DNA of 6,627 nucleotides, taken from contig MNYV01000064.1 in assembly GCA_001873285.1 (NCBI GenBank), forward strand, positions 1-6,627, given 5' to 3'. The translations under genes and the position numbers were made by a program. A model generated the notes under the pieces. The model searched no databases and had not been told where the DNA came from. It saw only the letters and a program-made list of their open reading frames with translations. Below are positions 18-6,573 of this stretch, in pieces. Numbering within the stretch: the first letter of the stretch is position 1; each line of letters starts with the position of its first letter. Source of the stretch: Nitrospirae bacterium CG2_30_53_67. Lineage in GTDB: Bacteria; CG2-30-53-67.

Positions 18-88
18 GGGTTACGCTTCGCGTGCCCCGCTTTTCTCTATCTTTGCCGTCTGCGACGGCTACTACACTGAGGTATCTT
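18..88 (+). repeat. 71-bp cassette inside repeat copy A
   Basis: The segment is the near-exact reverse complement of 6403-6473. Both are 71 bp, 64 positions match, and all seven differences are transitions. It lies between octamer units 2 and 3 of a four-unit block, so the 8-bp units resume cleanly on either side. It contains a perfect 6-bp stem, GCCGTC-TGC-GACGGC (55-69), conserved in both copies. It also has a small ACGC-TTC-GCGT stem (23-33) that in the other copy keeps pairing through a G-U wobble. The function is unknown. Confidence 0.85.
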
Positions 89-342: not shown

Positions 343-1323
343 TTAATGACCCGCCCCGCCGTACAAGAAACATCGGACCCACCGGTTGTTTTCCCTGGGG
401 ATCAACGGAGGCGGAAGATGATCGCACGGTTTAAATCTTTCCGGACATCTTGTATGGAACAAACATCCCGGAGGAGGGTTGGAGGCGCTCGGGATCTCTC
501 CCATCAGAGGGACCTTTTTACGCCGGAGAGTCGGATCCGGCACCGGAATCGCTGAAAAGAGCGCCTTGGTATAGGGATGAAGGGGGGATTCATAGAGATC
601 GTTCCGGCCGGCGACCTCCATAATCTTTCCCAAATACATCACGGCCACCCTGTCGCACAGATACTCCACCACACTCAGATCGTGAGAAATAAAAACATAA
701 GTTAGACCGTATCTCTCCTTAAGATCCCCGAGCAAATTCAGGACCTGCGCCCGAATCGATACATCCAGCGCCGATACCGGCTCATCGGCAATGATGATCC
801 GGGGATGAACGGCCAGCGCACGGGCAATCCCCACGCGCTGCCTCTGCCCGCCGCTGAATTCATGGGGGTATTTGCCGTAGTCATCTTCTGAAAGGCCGAC
901 GTCCCGGAGCAAGGAGAGGACCTTCTCTGTTCTCTTGTTTTTTGAGAGTTGTCTTAGGTTGATCCTGATGGACTCCTCAATAGCCTCCCCGGCGGTCATG
1001 CGGGGATTCAGGGATGCAAAAGGATCCTGGAAGATGATCTGCATCTCGGACCGGATCTTGCGCATATCCGAACGGCTCTTTTTAAGGATATCCTCCTGGT
1101 GAAGGAGGATCTCGCCCTCGGTCGGTTCAACAAGGCGGAGGATGCACTTCCCGACCGTGGACTTCCCGCAGCCGGATTCTCCAACCAGTCCCAGGGTCTC
1201 GCCTTCATGAAGGGTCAGGTCCACGCCGTCCACGGCACGAACCATCTGCCGCCCCAGTTTCATGAAGCCTCTTTGAATAGGGAAATATTTCTTCAGTCCT
1301 TTGACTTCAAGAATGGCCGACAA
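343..1323 (-). CDS. oppF: Peptide/opine-type ABC importer ATP-binding protein (OppF/DppF family)
   Basis: This is one of the two cytoplasmic ATPases that power an oligopeptide, dipeptide or related ABC importer. It is 326 residues long, normal for the family. Visible motifs are Walker A GESGCGKS (48-55), Q-loop Q99, ABC signature SGGQRQ (157-162), Walker B IIIADEP (about 176-182) and H-loop H214. The C-terminal oligo_HPY region begins at HPYTKAL and has four cysteines, 287, 293, 300 and 318, spaced C-X5-C-X6-C-X17-C. This resembles the pattern reported to bind an iron-sulfur cluster in some DppD proteins. The start is taken as TTG at 1323, giving [14 protein letters not shown], with GGAG six bases upstream. 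A TTG four codons earlier overlaps that site. The partner ATPase oppD lies upstream but repeat copy B intervenes. The substrate cannot be told because permease and binding-protein genes are absent from the window. Confidence 0.93.
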
Positions 1324-1329
1324 GATGAA

Positions 1330-1333
1330 CTCC
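1330..1333 (-). promoter_or_regulatory. Shine-Dalgarno site deciding the oppF TTG start
   Basis: On the minus strand GGAG is followed by TTCATC and then TTG at 1323-1321. The six-base spacing is ideal, whereas the longer in-frame TTG at 1335 would place this site inside the coding region. The resulting N-terminus also matches the family better. Confidence 0.6.
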
Positions 1334-1338
1334 AAATA

Positions 1339-1563
1339 GAGATCCAGGGTTCAAGGGTTCCAGGGTTCAAGGATTCAAGTGAAATACTTAAAGGCAAGCA
1401 CAATCTCCAGAGAAAAACACTATAACACCTGAACCCTCGGCCCCTTATGTTTTGAGCACTTCACTCGACCCCTTGAACCCTTGACCCCTCGGACCCTCAG
1501 GTTCTTGAAAAGCACTTCACTCGACCCCTGGAATCCTTGACCGCTTGACCCCTGATATTTTCA
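1339..1563. repeat. Dispersed octamer-block repeat, copy B, between oppD and oppF
   Basis: The left G-rich block (1347-1378) has units GGGTTCAA, GGGTTCCA, GGGTTCAA and GGATTCAA, preceded by a degenerate fifth unit. The centre (1379-1420) matches copies C and D, including AATCTCCAGAGAAAAACAC. A shortened central C-rich block follows (1421-1444). This copy then has two right-hand C-rich blocks (1465-1496 and 1521-1552), each preceded by a GCACTTCAC spacer, where the others have one. The terminal inverted repeats of C and D are missing. The right edge TGATATTTTCA contains the complement of the oppD stop codon, so the repeat abuts that gene exactly. Confidence 0.85.
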
Positions 1564-2544
1564 TGACGTGACCACCCCGACATGCTTGAAACACCGGACA
1601 AAATGTCCGGATTCCATCTCCACCAGATCAGGGTTCCGCTGCCGGCATTCTCCGGTGACATGGACGCAGCGATCCGAAAACTTGCACCATGGGGCGACAT
1701 CAATCAGATCCGATACCGTGCCGGGAATGGCCTTGAGACGATCCCTCGCTCCGTGGCTGCCGATGCGGGGAATGGATTGCATCAGCCCGATGGTATAGGG
1801 ATGACAGGGCCGTTGGAAAAGGTCCACGGTCCGGGCATGCTCCACAACCTCTCCGGCATACATGACCACGGTCCGATCCGCCATTTCCGCAATGACGCCG
1901 AGATCGTGTGTGATCATGAGGATGGACATGTCGGATTCCTCACGGATATTGCTCATGAGATCGAGGATCTGGGCCTGTATGGTCACATCCAGTGCGGTCG
2001 TGGGCTCGTCTGCAATCAGGATGGAAGGGCTCCCGGATAGGGCCATGGCGATCATCACGCGCTGCCGCATCCCTCCGGAAAGCTGGTGAGGATATTCAGA
2101 GATCCGCTGCTCCGGGGAAGGGATCTGCACCGATTTCAGAAGCTGCACGGTTTTATCCATGGCCTCCTTCTTCATGAGGTTCTGATGCGCCATGACGGCC
2201 TCTGCAATCTGGTCCCCGACTGTAAAGACCGGGTTCAGGGAGGTCATGGGCTCCTGAAAGATCATGGAGATCCTGTTCCCCCGAATTTTCCGCATCTCCT
2301 CGGAATCGAGTGCAAGGAGATTGCGGCCTTCAAACAAAATCTCCCCTGTGACCACCCTTGCCGGAGGCATGAGAAGAAGTCTCATGATGGAAAGGGCCGT
2401 TACGCTCTTGCCGCACCCGGACTCCCCCACCATACCGAGAACCTCTCCTTTTTCCAAGGTCAAAGAGAGATGATTCACGGCCTGCACCACACCGGCATCG
2501 GTATGAAAATGGATGGTCAGATTTTTGATTTCAAGGATGGGCAT
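1561..2544 (-). CDS. oppD: Peptide/opine-type ABC importer ATP-binding protein (OppD/DppD family)
   Basis: This is the second ATPase of an OppDF/DppDF heterodimer, acting at the inner face of the cytoplasmic membrane. It has 327 residues starting MPILEIKNLTIHFHT. Motifs are Walker A GESGCGKS (40-47), Q-loop Q97, signature LSGGMRQ (155-161), Walker B ILIADEP (175-181) and H-loop H213. The oligo_HPY tail starts near HPYTIGL. Its cysteines 287, 293, 300 and 318 have the same C-X5-C-X6-C-X17-C spacing as the OppF partner. The frame stays open for 51 codons upstream, but that stretch overlaps the TPR gene and has no family resemblance, so ATG at 2544 is chosen. The Shine-Dalgarno there is weak. 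The gene starts 62 bp after the TPR stop and probably shares its transcript. Its stop falls at the edge of repeat copy B. Permease and binding-protein genes are not in the window, so the substrate is unknown. Confidence 0.93.
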   Translation of the reverse strand: MPILEIKNLTIHFHTDAGVVQAVNHLSLTLEKGEVLGMVGESGCGKSVTALSIMRLLLMPPARVVTGEILFEGRNLLALDSEEMRKIRGNRISMIFQEPMTSLNPVFTVGDQIAEAVMAHQNLMKKEAMDKTVQLLKSVQIPSPEQRISEYPHQLSGGMRQRVMIAMALSGSPSILIADEPTTALDVTIQAQILDLMSNIREESDMSILMITHDLGVIAEMADRTVVMYAGEVVEHARTVDLFQRPCHPYTIGLMQSIPRIGSHGARDRLKAIPGTVSDLIDVAPWCKFSDRCVHVTGECRQRNPDLVEMESGHFVRCFKHVGVVTS

Positions 2545-2596
2545 GGGATGATGGATTCCATAGGGACGACCCGGGATCGGGTATAACGAAAACAAG

Positions 2597-2616
2597 AGCC
2601 GATGGTTCAGCCGGCT
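2597..2616 (-). terminator. Weak hairpin at the end of the TPR gene
   Basis: AGCCG and CGGCT form a 5-bp stem with a 10-base loop that includes the TPR stop codon. On the minus strand it is followed by CTTGTTTTCG, a broken T-tract. On the plus strand T residues follow directly. It could be a leaky terminator before oppD or chance pairing. Confidence 0.2.
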
Positions 2617-3323
2617 TTTTTGCCTCCGCTCTCGACCAGTCGGAGAAAGGTTGAGGCCTCTCTGTTTTGCGGGTCGATCTGCTGCGCCGTATGCCACTCC
2701 TCTACAGCCAGGTCTTTTTTGCCTTGCTTGTAATAGGTCAGGCCGAGATGAAGAAAGACCGGCACATAGGCCGGATTGACGGTTTTTGCCTGCTGCAAAT
2801 ATTTGACCGCGTTGTTCAGATCCCCTTTCTCACGGTGAGCCAGTCCGATTTTGATGAGGATCTCCATAGAATTAGGCCGCATCTTCAATGCCATGAGGTA
2901 TTCATGGATCGCTTCGTTGAACCAGCCGATCTCATGGTAGGCATCACCGGTTTCCACATGCATCCCCGCCAATTTCCCCTGCACAAATGGATCAATGAAA
3001 TAAGGGGCGGACTGGACGATATCGGCCGCGTTTTTAAACACGGCTTCGGCTTCTTCAAACTTTCCACTTTCATTGAGGCAGATCACCAGATTCAACGCGG
3101 CTTCTGTATAATTCGGGTTGATTTCAAGGGCCTTGCGGAAGGATCGGGAGGCCTTGTTAAACTTGCCGTCCGCATGGTAGATCATCCCGAGTTTACTGTG
3201 GACCTCGGCAAGCTTCTCTTCTTGTTCAAGGACCATCTCAAAACACTTTCTGGCCTCTTCGAACTCCCCATGTGAAAAGTGCGTTTTCCCCCGGATGTAC
3301 ATCTCCTGAACGGCTTCTTTCAT
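2607..3323 (-). CDS. Tetratricopeptide-repeat (TPR) protein
   Basis: This 238-residue protein is made almost entirely of about six 34-residue TPR units, at roughly residues 5-38, 39-72, 73-106, 119-152, 153-186 and 187-220. Typical TPR pattern residues recur, for example LGMIYHADGKFNKASRSFRK, with A-x-x-x-F and NP helix breaks. Units 3 and 4 are separated by an irregular insert around VQSAPYFIDPFVQGK. There is no signal peptide or membrane segment, so it is probably a cytoplasmic protein-protein interaction scaffold. The client is unknown. ATG at 3323 follows AAGGAG (3330-3335) at a six-base spacing, which fixes the start. A promoter-like pair lies about 140 bp upstream. oppD follows after 62 bp and may be cotranscribed. 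A link to hflKC or peptide import is only positional. Confidence 0.9.
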   Translation of the reverse strand: MKEAVQEMYIRGKTHFSHGEFEEARKCFEMVLEQEEKLAEVHSKLGMIYHADGKFNKASRSFRKALEINPNYTEAALNLVICLNESGKFEEAEAVFKNAADIVQSAPYFIDPFVQGKLAGMHVETGDAYHEIGWFNEAIHEYLMALKMRPNSMEILIKIGLAHREKGDLNNAVKYLQQAKTVNPAYVPVFLHLGLTYYKQGKKDLAVEEWHTAQQIDPQNREASTFLRLVESGGKKAG

Positions 3324-3382
3324 AGAAGGCTCCTTCTGATGGGTCGCATATGGTCAAACCCTAACCACCAACCAGTAGAGAA

Positions 3383-3410
3383 CACAGAGTATTTCTCTCA
3401 GCACTCTGTG
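3383..3410. repeat. CACAGAGT inverted repeat in the TPR leader
   Basis: CACAGAGT (3383-3390) and ACTCTGTG (3403-3410) form a perfect 8-bp dyad around a 12-base loop. Flanking AA and GTT allow a slightly longer imperfect stem. It lies between the promoter-like site and the TPR start, so it would form in the leader RNA. No T-tract follows on the minus strand, which argues against a simple terminator. It may be a separate short dispersed repeat or an operator. Confidence 0.5.
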
Positions 3411-3462
3411 GTTTCATCTCTTACCCTTTTTGTGAAACTTTGACATGATCATTCTTTCTGGA

Positions 3463-3491
3463 ATTCTAAACAATTCTGCCGGTGAATGCAA
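3463..3491 (-). promoter_or_regulatory. Putative promoter for the TPR-oppDF unit
   Basis: On the minus strand TTGCAT is followed by 17 bases and then TAGAAT, which matches the sigma-70 -10 consensus at five of six positions. The -35 match is only TTG. It sits just inside repeat copy C, in an AT-rich stretch. It would start a transcript reading through the CACAGAGT dyad into the TPR gene. This is pattern-based only. Confidence 0.35.
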
Positions 3492-3512
3492 CTTTTTTCA
3501 GGTTTTCAATAG

Positions 3513-3730
3513 GGTTCTTCTCCCATCCAGTGGGTAAGAAGGGTTCGAGGATTCCAGGGTTCAAGGGGTCAAGTGAAATACTGAAACGCAAGCAAAATCT
3601 CCAGAGAAAAACACTGGAACCCTTGAACCCTAGGACCCTCGGCCCCTTATGTTTTTAGCGCTTCACTTGACCCCTGGAATCCTTGACCCCTTGACCCCTG
3701 ATGTTTTCACCCACTCTTTTGGAGATGACC
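3513..3730. repeat. Dispersed octamer-block repeat, copy C (most complete, 218 bp)
   Basis: This is the reference copy. The left end GGTTCTTCTCCCATCCAG plus TGGGTAAGAA mirrors the reverse complement of the right end, GGTCATCTCC then AGTGGGTGAAAA, giving a degenerate terminal inverted repeat of about 27 bp. Inside are a G-rich block of four octamers (3541-3572), a centre (3573-3614), a C-rich block of four (3615-3646), a spacer TTATGTTTTTAGCGCTTCAC, and a second C-rich block of four (3667-3698). The flanks are TTTTCAATA (left) and TTTTAATA (right), a possible imperfect target duplication. It lies between hflC and the TPR gene. The rest of this 488-bp gap holds the promoter-like pair and a dyad, with no gene. 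Confidence 0.9.
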
Positions 3731-3811
3731 TTTTAATATAAACACCCTCCGTGCAGATTCGGGCGGGCCTCCTCACTCAACGGGAAGGCCATGAGCCTTT
3801 ACAGGAAACAT

Positions 3812-4669
3812 TCACCGGCTCTTCTTTAAGAACCTGAAAAATTCCGATTCCGGGCCGATAAGCAGAAGGGTCTTGTCCGGCAATGATTTTTTATACGCAT
3901 CCATAGACCGGATGAACTCAAAAAACTCAGGGTCATTCTGAAAGGCCTCCGCATAAATTTTAGTGGCTGAGGCATCCCCTTCGCCTTTGAGCTCCTGGGA
4001 TTTTCGTTTTGCCTCGGCCAGGATGATGGTCTTCTCCTTTTCCGCCTCGGCCCGGATCTTCATGGCCGCCTCTTCACCTTCGGAACGGTACCTCTTGGCC
4101 TCCTGCTCCCGCTCCGCCTTCATCCGGTCATAGACATGTTTCTCATTTTCCGGCGGAAGGTCCGCTCTCTTGATCCGGACATCCACCACTTCGATCCCAT
4201 AAGAGAGGGCCTTTCGGTTGGTATCCTGTGTCACCGTCTTCATGATCTGGGATCGGTTTTCTGAAACCATCTGGATGAGATCATATTTTCCGAGCTCCGC
4301 CCTGAGATTCGAGTAGATAATGTCGTCCAGGCGGGCCTGCGCCCCGAATTCATTCCGCATGGTCTGATAGAACCTCAGCGGGTCCTTGATTCTCCATTTT
4401 GCAAAGTTGTCCACCACCAGGTTCTTCTTATCCCTGGTAATGATTCCTTTAGCCGCCGCATCATATTCCAGAATCCGATTGTCAAAAAAGATGACCTGCT
4501 GGACAAAGGGGACCTTGACATGAAGGCCTGGGTCATGGATGGTCCGGACCGGCTTTCCCAATTGCACCAGAAGGGCCGATTCCGTCTGATCCACGGTAAA
4601 GAGAACCTGGGAGAGGGACAACATGGCCAGGATGATCAGGACGCCGGCCACGGCAGAAAGTTTTTTCAT
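3812..4669 (-). CDS. hflC: HflC, SPFH-domain membrane protein modulating FtsH
   Basis: HflC and HflK assemble into a membrane-anchored cage around the FtsH protease and modulate its degradation of membrane proteins. The 285-residue product has an N-terminal membrane anchor (about 4-25), then an SPFH/band-7 domain (about 22-190) with conserved features such as Q-T-E-S-A-L-L and DPGLHVKVPF. A charged coiled-coil follows (about 180-230, KAEREQEAKRYRSEGEEAAM), then the alanine-rich GDASATKIYAEAF segment. It is shorter than Escherichia coli HflC (about 334 residues) but has every region. ATG at 4669 is preceded by AGGAGG five bases away. It begins 14 bp after the hflK stop, so the two are surely cotranscribed. 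No clear terminator follows the TGA. The adjacent 3731-3811 holds nothing recognised. Confidence 0.95.
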   Translation of the reverse strand: MKKLSAVAGVLIILAMLSLSQVLFTVDQTESALLVQLGKPVRTIHDPGLHVKVPFVQQVIFFDNRILEYDAAAKGIITRDKKNLVVDNFAKWRIKDPLRFYQTMRNEFGAQARLDDIIYSNLRAELGKYDLIQMVSENRSQIMKTVTQDTNRKALSYGIEVVDVRIKRADLPPENEKHVYDRMKAEREQEAKRYRSEGEEAAMKIRAEAEKEKTIILAEAKRKSQELKGEGDASATKIYAEAFQNDPEFFEFIRSMDAYKKSLPDKTLLLIGPESEFFRFLKKSR

Positions 4670-4683
4670 CTCTTCCTCCTTGC

Positions 4684-5745
4684 TTATGGTTTGGCCTTTT
4701 CCTGCCCGCCTTTTTCCATCAGCCGTTCGAGCGGGAGGTAGGGCAACACTCTTTCAGATACGTTCTGATCCAGGAGAACCTTTTCCATCCGGGGAAGGAT
4801 CTCCTCAAGGGTTTCCAGGTAGATTCTGGTCCTCGTGACATCCTTAGCCTTCTTATACTCGGCAAGGACCTGAAGGAAGCGGCTGGCATCCCCTTTGGCC
4901 TCATTGATCTTGGCCTCACGGTAGGCCTGTGCCTCATTGATGATCTGCTGGGCCATACCCTTGGCCTTGGGGAGGATGTCATTTCGGTAACCCATAGACT
5001 GGTTCTCGATCTTTTCCTTGTCCTCTTTGGCCGAGGCCACATCCTTGAAGGCGGCGATCACCGGCTCGGGAGGGAGGACATCCTGCAGTTGGACCGCGTC
5101 CACCATGATTCCGACCTCGTACCGGTCCAGGATCCCCTGGAGCAGGGTCATGGTATCCTGCTGGATCTGGAACTTTCCCTCGGTCAGAACTTCATCGATC
5201 TTATTCTTGCCGACCACCTCGCGGATGGCTGCCTCTGCCGCATCCTTGATGGTCTTCTCCTGATCACGGATGTTGAAGAGATAAGAGACCGGGTCCTGGA
5301 TCCGGTACTGCACAATAAACTCCAGGGCCACGATATTGGCGTCTCCGGTGAGCATCAGGGCCTCGGCGGGAACCTCCCGATACCGGGCCGGCGAACCGGA
5401 GTCGACGGTTCTAAATCCCACCTCCACCCGGTGAACCTTGGTCACCTTGGGCTTGAGCGCCGATTCCACAGGAAAAGGGATATGCCAGTGCGGGCCAGGC
5501 TGCGCAGTTCTCACCATCTTTCCGAACCGCTTCACCACCCCCATCTCATCCGGGGCCACAATAAAAATCCCGGATAAAACCCACAAGGCCAGAATCACCA
5601 TCACGATGGCCCCTGCCCCCGGGATCTTATGCTTCAAAGACTTGAAAGACCGGAACGATTCTTCAAATTTTTTAACCATGTCTTCAATCGGCAGGGGGCC
5701 TTCACCCCACGGCCCGCCTCCCGGACTTCCTGGGTTCCACGGCAT
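4684..5745 (-). CDS. hflK: HflK, SPFH-domain membrane protein partner of HflC
   Basis: This is the partner of HflC in the FtsH-modulating complex. The 353-residue protein opens with a short Gly/Pro/Trp-rich tail (MPWNPGSPGGGPWGEGP) typical of HflK. Then come an amphipathic stretch, one membrane segment (about 43-63, ending in VLSGIFIV), an SPFH domain (about 64-235) beginning with APDEMGVVKRFGK, and a long helical region (about 236-300) with AKGMAQQIINEAQAYREA and the GDASRFLQVLAEYKKA motif. E. coli HflK is about 419 residues. The difference is mainly in the shorter N- and C-terminal tails. ATG at 5745 has a strong AAGGAGG five bases upstream. It heads the hflKC unit, and 171 bp separate it from hypA. 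Confidence 0.95.
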   Translation of the reverse strand: MPWNPGSPGGGPWGEGPLPIEDMVKKFEESFRSFKSLKHKIPGAGAIVMVILALWVLSGIFIVAPDEMGVVKRFGKMVRTAQPGPHWHIPFPVESALKPKVTKVHRVEVGFRTVDSGSPARYREVPAEALMLTGDANIVALEFIVQYRIQDPVSYLFNIRDQEKTIKDAAEAAIREVVGKNKIDEVLTEGKFQIQQDTMTLLQGILDRYEVGIMVDAVQLQDVLPPEPVIAAFKDVASAKEDKEKIENQSMGYRNDILPKAKGMAQQIINEAQAYREAKINEAKGDASRFLQVLAEYKKAKDVTRTRIYLETLEEILPRMEKVLLDQNVSERVLPYLPLERLMEKGGQEKAKP

Positions 5746-5766
5746 CAGTCCCTCCTTTCTGAAAAG

Positions 5767-5782
5767 TCCGGCTGCACCCGGA
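5767..5782 (-). other. Small hairpin in the hflK leader
   Basis: TCCGG and CCGGA form a 5-bp stem around a six-base loop just upstream of the hflK Shine-Dalgarno. On the minus strand CTTTTC follows. The stem is short and the T-tract imperfect, so it may be a weak attenuator or have no role. Confidence 0.2.
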
Positions 5783-5797
5783 TCCGATCACTTTTTT

Positions 5798-5809
5798 TTA
5801 GTCAACTAA
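5798..5809. promoter_or_regulatory. TTAGT-CA-ACTAA dyad upstream of hflK
   Basis: This 12-bp near-palindrome lies next to an eight-T run in the AT-rich spacer between hypA and hflK. It sits about 25 bp downstream of a promoter-like pair, a location suited to a repressor operator. No family is recognised, and a single short dyad can arise by chance. Confidence 0.2.
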
Positions 5810-5832
5810 CGAAATTGAAATAATTTTTAGAT

Positions 5833-5861
5833 AGTCTAATGGATTGTGAGATAAAGCGCAA
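5833..5861 (-). promoter_or_regulatory. Putative promoter for hflKC
   Basis: On the minus strand TTGCGC is separated by 17 bases from TAGACT, in the most AT-rich part of the 171-bp hypA-hflK spacer. Matches to consensus are three of six (-35) and four of six (-10). The spacing and position are right but the support is weak. I looked for a heat-shock type promoter (CTTGAA and CCCCAT-like boxes) and found only an unconvincing CCCCAT further upstream. Confidence 0.25.
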
Positions 5862-5916
5862 CAGGTATTGAAGGAATGGGGGTGCGACAAATTTATCAGA
5901 AAGCAAAACGGGATAT

Positions 5917-6258
5917 CTATCCGACCTCCATCTCCTTGACGCGGAGTTCGTTCCCGGAGATGAGCTCGGACGAGATGCTCCCGCAATGGGTGCAGGTCAT
6001 CTTGAATCCGCCGGCATTATATTCGGTCGAACAGGATAGGCATCTGACCTTAAGAGGAATCGATGTAATGGAAAGTTTCGCCCCTTGTGCAAGGGTATCC
6101 TGACTTAATTGTTCAAAATGAGTCTGCATTTCCTTGGTATCCAGGCCGCTCAGTTCACCGACCTCAATGACGACCCTGGTGATGCGGCTGGCTCCTTCGG
6201 CCTGGGCTTTTTCAATCAACTGTTTTAAGATCTCTCTGGTTACGGTCAGGCCGTCCAT
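5917..6258 (-). CDS. hypA: HypA/HybF-family protein lacking the N-terminal Met-His-Glu nickel motif
   Basis: HypA is a small metallochaperone that, with HypB, delivers nickel to NiFe hydrogenase. This 113-residue protein follows the family along its length: LTVTREIL near the start, RITRVVIEVGELSGLD (25-40), a zinc site C73-X2-C76-X12-C89-X2-C92 and the closing SGNELRVKEMEV. The unusual point is the N-terminus. Canonical HypA starts M-H-E-L-S-V-T, and His2 is the key nickel ligand. Here the second of two adjacent ATGs gives M-D-G-L-T-V-T in perfect register, so His2 and Glu3 are Asp and Gly. The first ATG (6261) would give MMDG, also without His. The Shine-Dalgarno AAAGGG is four bases before the second ATG and one before the first. 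The protein may bind nickel differently or have changed role. No hypB or hydrogenase gene is in the window. Confidence 0.88.
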   Translation of the reverse strand: MDGLTVTREILKQLIEKAQAEGASRITRVVIEVGELSGLDTKEMQTHFEQLSQDTLAQGAKLSITSIPLKVRCLSCSTEYNAGGFKMTCTHCGSISSELISGNELRVKEMEVG

Positions 6259-6284
6259 CATACCCTTTCATGATGATTTTTTAT

Positions 6285-6573
6285 GGTTCTTCTCCCATCT
6301 AGTGGGTAAAAAGGGTTCGAGGATTCCAGGGTTCAAGGGGTCAAGTGAAATACTGAAACGCAAGCAAAATCTCCAGAGAAAAACACTGGAACCCTTGATC
6401 CCAAGATGCCTTAGTGTAGTAGCCGTCGCAGACGGCAAGGATAAAGAAAAACGGGACACACGAAGCGTAACCCTATGACCCTCGGCCCCTTATGTTTTTA
6501 GCACTTCACTTGACCCCTGGAATCCTTGACCCCTTGACCCCTGATGTTTTCACACACTCTTTTGGAGATGATC
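6285..6573. repeat. Dispersed octamer-block repeat, copy D (289 bp, with 71-bp cassette)
   Basis: This copy has the same layout and ends as copy C: left end GGTTCTTCTCCCATCTAG, G-rich block (6313-6344), shared centre, C-rich block (6387-6402 and 6474-6489), spacer TTATGTTTTTAGCACTTCAC, right C-rich block (6510-6541) and right end GGAGATGATC. Its length of 289 bp equals copy C (218) plus the 71-bp cassette at 6403-6473. Flanks are TTTTTTAT on the left and TTTTTTGT on the right, a possible imperfect target duplication. It lies in the hypA leader. I see no gene in 6262-6627, only this repeat and a promoter-like site. Confidence 0.9.
6403..6473 (-). repeat. 71-bp cassette inside repeat copy D
   Basis: This is the reverse complement of the 18-88 cassette with seven transitions and no indels. 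It interrupts the central C-rich block between units TTGATCCC and TATGACCC, leaving the octamers on both sides whole. The stem GCCGTC-GCA-GACGGC is at 6422-6436. Relative to the G-rich strand of its block it has the same orientation and position (between the second and third unit) as the cassette in copy A. Confidence 0.85.

Follow-up and report, generated by a model that had tools for sequence, protein, structure and literature searches.

A family-restricted, non-autonomous palindromic element with two covarying hairpins in Nitrospirae bacterium CG2_30_53_67 and its relatives

The DNA analyzed here contains two copies of a short cassette that is a family-restricted, non-autonomous palindromic element of a known general kind, for which we found no description in the open-access literature and no matching family in Rfam. 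Its copies are precisely present or absent at related loci, with ends that stay constant, one orientation and a TT at the end of the target word, and both of its hairpins covary. The window, by which we mean the whole stretch of 6,627 nucleotides, corresponds to contig 64, starting at the first base, of a 2.36-Mb genome assembled in 183 contigs (G000). Between its repeats, at 343-6261, lie oppF-, oppD-, TPR protein-, hflC-, hflK- and hypA-like genes on the minus strand, as judged from ORF translations only.

A preliminary description of this DNA had reported two 71-bp cassettes on opposite strands, at 18-88 (plus strand, copy A, left block) and 6403-6473 (minus strand, copy D, central block), and sequence comparison bore this out: each 71 nt long, 18-88 and the reverse complement of 6403-6473 agree at 64 of 71 positions, with all 7 differences being transitions. 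Within G000, the match has an E-value of ~6e-22, far beyond what chance would give. The length first given was correct, while the ends had to be moved, as the original limits (GGGTT...ATCTT) and those of the inserted unit are 5 nt apart. Based on empty and filled sites, this unit is therefore ACGC...GGGGT, and the true insertion point lies inside an octamer, at GGGTT^CAA, with a junction ambiguity of 1 nt (one T). For copy A, orthologous and octamer-free empty sites point to an inserted unit at 23-93 on the plus strand (ACGC...TATCTTGGGGT, after target GGGTT^); for copy D, the matching empty block of the repeat at 3513-3730 places it at 6398-6468 on the minus strand (ACGC...CATCTTGGGAT, again after GGGTT^). 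The unit starts with a left-end hairpin from its first base. A linker (CCCCGCTT...) and a tail (AAGGTATCTTGGGGT), both conserved, lie before and after its second hairpin, respectively. In copy A, the hairpins lie at 23-33 (ACGC-TTC-GCGT) and 55-69 (GCCGTC-TGC-GACGGC), both on the plus strand and both seen in covariation and in a DNA fold. Their counterparts on the minus strand in copy D lie at 6458-6468 (ACGC-TTC-GTGT, with a G-T pair kept; sequence comparison and covariation) and 6422-6436 (covariation and DNA fold). Unit length ranges from 71 to 107 bp across the family, the 107-bp forms having an extra hairpin within the loop of the left hairpin. G000 contains 26 full-length cassettes and about a dozen 118-bp forms with 47 extra internal bases. 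These bases form an insert that carries a hairpin (TCGTTAGATCCCGGCATCTCC...GCCGGGCCGGGA) of its own and occupies a single fixed position within the cassette, whether the copy belongs to a left or a central block (L034, L035, L037-L040 and L043-L045 in G000; L152 and L153 in G001, a congeneric species); they represent a third nesting level.

The preliminary description had also proposed a selected structure, and strong covariation supports selection on both hairpins. The left hairpin was 98.7% paired among 38 aligned sequences. When 66 distinct members were aligned to the covariance model, an alignment that is somewhat biased towards that model, 96.7% of the cells were paired; controls in which the pairing was slid reached 23-50%. 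Changes on both sides were found in 9 of the 10 pairs, and 60 cells showed a double change, vs 12.9 in shuffles. Left stems occur as ACGC/GCGT, ATGC/GCAT, GTGC/GCAC, GCAC/GTGC, ACAC/GTGT and GCGC/GCGC, and right stems as GCCGTC, GCCGCC, GCTGCC, GCCGCT, ACCACC, GTCACC and GTAGCC, each with its complement. A single-strand DNA fold of copy A gave the same two hairpins as the covariation. We do not claim a further pairing between CCCC of the linker and GGGG of the tail, which was 90% paired with little covariation. A sibling module with another left stem (GACT...AGTC around TTTTCCCC...GGGGCC) and unchanged linker and tail often follows right after the first module (L217 1212-1319; L226 280-387; L232 344-511; L225 677-748).

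By its sequence features, the outer element that hosts the cassette is an ISL3-type MITE, with ISL3-like terminal inverted repeats (TIRs; GGTTCT...GTGGGTAA), an 8-bp target duplication and no ORF inside. It is bounded by the terminal repeats GGTTCTTCTCCCATTTAGTGGGTAA and GGWTCATCTCCAAAAGAGTGGGTGA, and many copies lie between 8-bp AT-rich direct repeats (e.g., ACATTTTC, GTAATTAT, ATATTTAT and TTTTATTT). Four copies were identified in the window, all on the plus strand: A at 1-314, which has a variant centre and lost its left end at the contig start; B at 1337-1563, a remnant without cassette; C at 3513-3730, 218 bp without cassette; and D at 6285-6573, 289 bp with TIRs GGTTCTTCTCC.../...GGAGATGATC and flanks TTTTTTAT and TTTTTTGT that agree at 7 of 8 positions. 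The earlier remark that D exceeds C by exactly the length of the cassette holds (289 vs 218 bp, or 71 bp). The outer element contains blocks of octamers of the form GGGxTCxA. In D, the left block (6311-6347; GGGTTCGA GGATTCCA GGGTTCAA GGGGTCAA GTG) has its G-rich strand on the plus strand, and the central block, which hosts the cassette (6385-6487), on the minus strand. ISL3 genes are present in G001, G003, G004 and G005, and none was found in G000. G005 carries a complete ISL3 element whose ends (GGTTCTCAACAGGATTGTGTGGGTAA) share the TIR form of the outer MITE, and in G001 a remnant of an ISL3 transposase lies close to an end (GGGTCTTCTCCCAAACGAGTGGGT). The cassette itself differs from this MITE, and from DDE-type MITEs in general, in having neither TIRs nor a target duplication. 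In the open-access literature, we found no description of octamer blocks in ISL3 MITEs. Two other inserts were observed: a different hairpin (ACCCCGTTAGAGG...CCTCTAACGGGGT) located in the outer element at fixed points (L011, L012, L027 and L029), and a separate CTTGTACTCGGTTTACCGGTATCAG insert (L014, L022 and L034).

The ends of the cassette were mapped by comparing orthologous loci of G000 and G001 with conserved genes on both sides, a comparison that does not polarize gain vs loss. Copy B is empty in G000 (GGGGTCAAGCGGTCAAGGATTCCAGGGG), whereas its ortholog in G001 (L082/L145) is filled (GGGGTCAAGGATT[ACGC...GGGGT]CCAGGGG), with a 71-bp cassette at GGATT^CCA in the right block. Likewise, L113 of G000 is empty (GGGTT^CAAGGGG) and L073 of G001 is filled with exactly 71 bp (GGGTT[ACGC...GGGGT]CGAGGGG). 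The reverse is seen for two 118-bp forms, L045 and L043 of G000, vs the empty loci L149 and L078 of G001, the latter also missing several octamers. Such orthologs differ by the gain or lack of exactly 71 or 118 bp. Two other candidate pairs, L034/L050 and L016/L051, were rejected, as both members of each pair carry a cassette in the same intergenic region, one on either strand. Because octamers are repetitive, we also checked the ends at octamer-free sites. A repeat in G005 that lacks octamers is empty at GAAGTAAATT^CAAATGGTTCC, i.e., AAATT^CAAATGG, and at this very point two distinct family members are inserted, the near flanks being identical and no duplication being present. Neither this comparison nor the orthologous pairs revealed a target-site duplication. 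In a third repeat context, empty copies read GCGTT^RCGCTTCATCC, and filled copies occur in both G000 and G001. Finally, a 107-bp member in G002 (L217 1604-1710, contig 229) splits a copy of tRNA-Ser(CGA) in the T-loop, at GGATT^CGAACCC; ARAGORN predicts tRNA-Ser(CGA) when the flanks are joined and none in the filled sequence, and L217 also contains an intact tRNA-Ser(CGA), at 846-934. In the octamer, AAATT, GCGTT and tRNA contexts alike, the unit is ACGC-like...GGGGT-like and the preceding word ends in TT.

The choice of target is correspondingly narrow. Among 45 copies from G000 and G001, TT stands 5' of the junction in all 45 and GGRTT in 41, and the target words comprise GGRTT^ (octamers GGRTT^CNA and the tRNA T-loop), GCGTT^ and AAATT^. 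Within the outer element, cassettes sit in left, central and right blocks; some lie outside it, and others are found in single-copy DNA with the same ends and a TT-type target. In nearly all copies of G000, the phase within the octamer and the orientation relative to the G-rich strand are constant; the same orientation had been noted for the two window copies and extends to those of G000 and G001. Placement between octamers 2 and 3, as first described, is correct for A and D, where two octamers precede the cassette, but is not a rule: 0, 1, 2 and 3 in-phase octamers precede it in 10, 8, 18 and 9 of the 45 copies, respectively. Fixed ends, phase and orientation thus agree with the site-specific nesting proposed earlier. 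Random phase or variable ends, which that proposal had named as evidence against itself, were not seen, and insertions outside octamers keep both the ends and the TT-type target.

We hold with moderate confidence that the cassette is a non-autonomous palindromic element inserted in trans by a single-strand, HUH/Y1-like route. A transposase supplied in trans would recognize the folded single strand, and the element would be joined 3' of a TT-ending target by a route akin to that of the IS200/IS605 Y1 HUH enzymes, with GGRTT as the putative left cleavage or target site and GGGGT as the putative right cleavage site. Members of the IS200/IS605 family use a hairpin at either end, and their insertion, 3' of a tetra- or pentanucleotide, leaves no duplication (PMC7290912, PMC6006769). 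The cassette resembles their PATE-type, ends-only derivatives in its subterminal hairpins near each end, word-specific insertion 3' of the target, lack of duplication and single orientation, as well as in the similarity of the pentanucleotides at its left flank and right end (GGRTT and GGGGT). It differs in that its two hairpins are unlike in sequence. The guide tetranucleotide just 5' of each hairpin foot, which by definition pairs with the site of cleavage in this family (PMC6006769), is absent; since the left hairpin begins at the junction, there is no room for a canonical guide 5' of its foot. All six element-bearing genomes carry Y1 genes, but so do two sister genomes that lack the element. 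In none of 12 Y1 loci, located in fragmented assemblies, did the cassette form the ends, and no tnpA-bearing parent with cassette ends was found among them. The RAYT-type Y1 genes at L047, L209, L210 and L216 have flanking inverted repeats that start with GGGGTCA and resemble the octamers and the right end of the cassette, an observation that we treat only as a lead.

The cassette also resembles the REP/BIME sequences mobilized with RAYT (TnpA-REP), in being a short intergenic palindrome with tens of copies, often clustered, in genomes that all six carry Y1 genes. Copies in G000 carry GTAGTA on the lower strand, and this lower-strand GTAGTAGCCGTC had prompted us to consider membership of the REP/RAYT system. 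The GTAG or GTGG found 0-2 nt 5' of REP hairpins (PMC6006769, PMC8266576) is not conserved in the cassette family, and cassettes do not flank the RAYT genes as REPs do, several of these flanks being GGGGTCAGAC-type inverted repeats. We dropped this assignment, since GTAG is missing from divergent members and repeats of other kinds flank the Y1 loci. A bolder proposal, which we put forward tentatively and consider somewhat doubtful, is that the cassette may form a new class of site-specific palindromic element whose preferred target would be the tRNA T-loop word GGRTTCRA, with the octamer arrays representing a multiplied target, and a strand-specific mechanism using neither the guide of IS200/IS605 nor the GTAG logic of REP.

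The most serious alternative is that the cassette inserted only a few times and was then copied within blocks, by homologous recombination or gene conversion among octamer arrays and outer copies. Block-level effects, also raised in the preliminary description, are real: in a tree of the 45 cassettes, which has few columns and weak resolution, only 6 changes of block label are needed, vs 15.6 with shuffled labels. As cassettes cluster by host block, most copies in G000 appear to have spread with the outer MITE or by conversion. Copy A has the same sequence as three others, of which two are known to lie in left blocks, and copy D falls in the central-block lineage, so that the two window copies belong to separate lineages. 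In addition, octamer counts differ beside cassettes, and the right-block copies L030 and L065, at non-orthologous loci, have an insertion and one missing octamer in common, which favours conversion there. Conversion accounts for copying within G000, but not for the origin of the element or its ends. The same ends recur in octamer-free contexts (the G005 repeat, the third repeat, tRNA-Ser and single-copy DNA), and cassettes occupy opposite strands of the same intergenic regions in related genomes. Given that several unrelated target contexts are occupied, the element must have moved independently too, and we consider conversion unlikely as the general explanation. In outline, the data show that a cassette that has landed in an octamer block of the MITE is copied along with it, possibly with block-to-block conversion, which gives rise to the two block-specific lineages of copies A and D.

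We consider it improbable that a serine or tyrosine recombinase inserted the cassette as a small circle, using a short core, GGKT, common to the target and the element ends. In its favour, one T at the junction can be assigned to either side, and GGGTT resembles GGGGT. However, the target words are diverse (GGGTT, GGATT, GCGTT and AAATT), with TT as their main common feature, and no inverted core sites were seen. Integron attC sites recombine by a crossover at G^TT. This rule misfits the right-hand junction, as an attC crossover would put TT on its right side, which is not so at GGGGT^CAAATGG, and attC was therefore rejected.

Tandem copies of tRNA 3' ends, with one or two family members each, were observed in the tRNA-Ser clusters L054, L217, L218, L225, L226 and L042, and recall the RtT repeats of E. 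coli tRNA operons. RtT RNA (Rfam RF00391) is comparable in consisting of tRNA-adjacent repeats with sequence like a tRNA 3' end; L054 gave weak, sub-threshold scores against it, far below the gathering score, owing to its tRNA-derived flank. These scores and the positions adjoining tRNA-Ser genes, together with covariation that includes G-U-type pairs and with conserved unpaired linkers, would suit a unit that is primarily a transcribed RNA element (a riboregulator, terminator or processing signal) under RNA selection. Yet Rfam holds no match to the cassette, and the precise presence and absence, the two orientations per intergenic region and the interrupted tRNA copy fit mobility rather than fixed regulation, leaving little probability for a primary RNA role. 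An assembly artefact, with chimeric joins at repeats, is very improbable: G000 is fragmented, with cassettes at contig ends (position 1 of the window, L018, L025, L033 and L035), but genomes assembled independently show this arrangement too, between flanks that are orthologous on either side, which refutes an artefact for interior copies.

To assess the distribution of the element, we used the covariance model, which matched in 6 of 145 genomes and in none of the other 139. All six belong to one family, with 50 matches in G000 and 18, 69, 12, 24 and 35 in the others, numbers that are lower bounds because contig ends often fall inside repeats (as at the window start and in L018, L025, L033 and L035); two genomes of the sister family gave 0 matches. 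Relatives with names include records of Hainich-H32-bin143, CG2-30-53-67 and Dive96_bin10.193, and CG2-30-53-67 has been described as a candidate phylum (PMC10591310). Matches of a degenerate pattern in unrelated genomes (L074, L075, L079, L081, L084, L086, L087 and L091) were discarded upon inspection as due to chance. A pattern scan of viral contigs returned 0 matches, and a phage link was accordingly dropped.

These results add a well-delimited, gene-less mobile family, with a covarying two-hairpin structure and mapped empty sites, to the uncultured bacterial family to which the CG2-30-53-67 lineage belongs. Nesting is visible at three levels: the MITE, its octamer block with the cassette, and the 47-bp insert within the cassette. 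Insertion into a tRNA T-loop and into T-loop-like octamers makes the choice of target directly testable, and indicates that short arrays can turn into landing sites for small elements.
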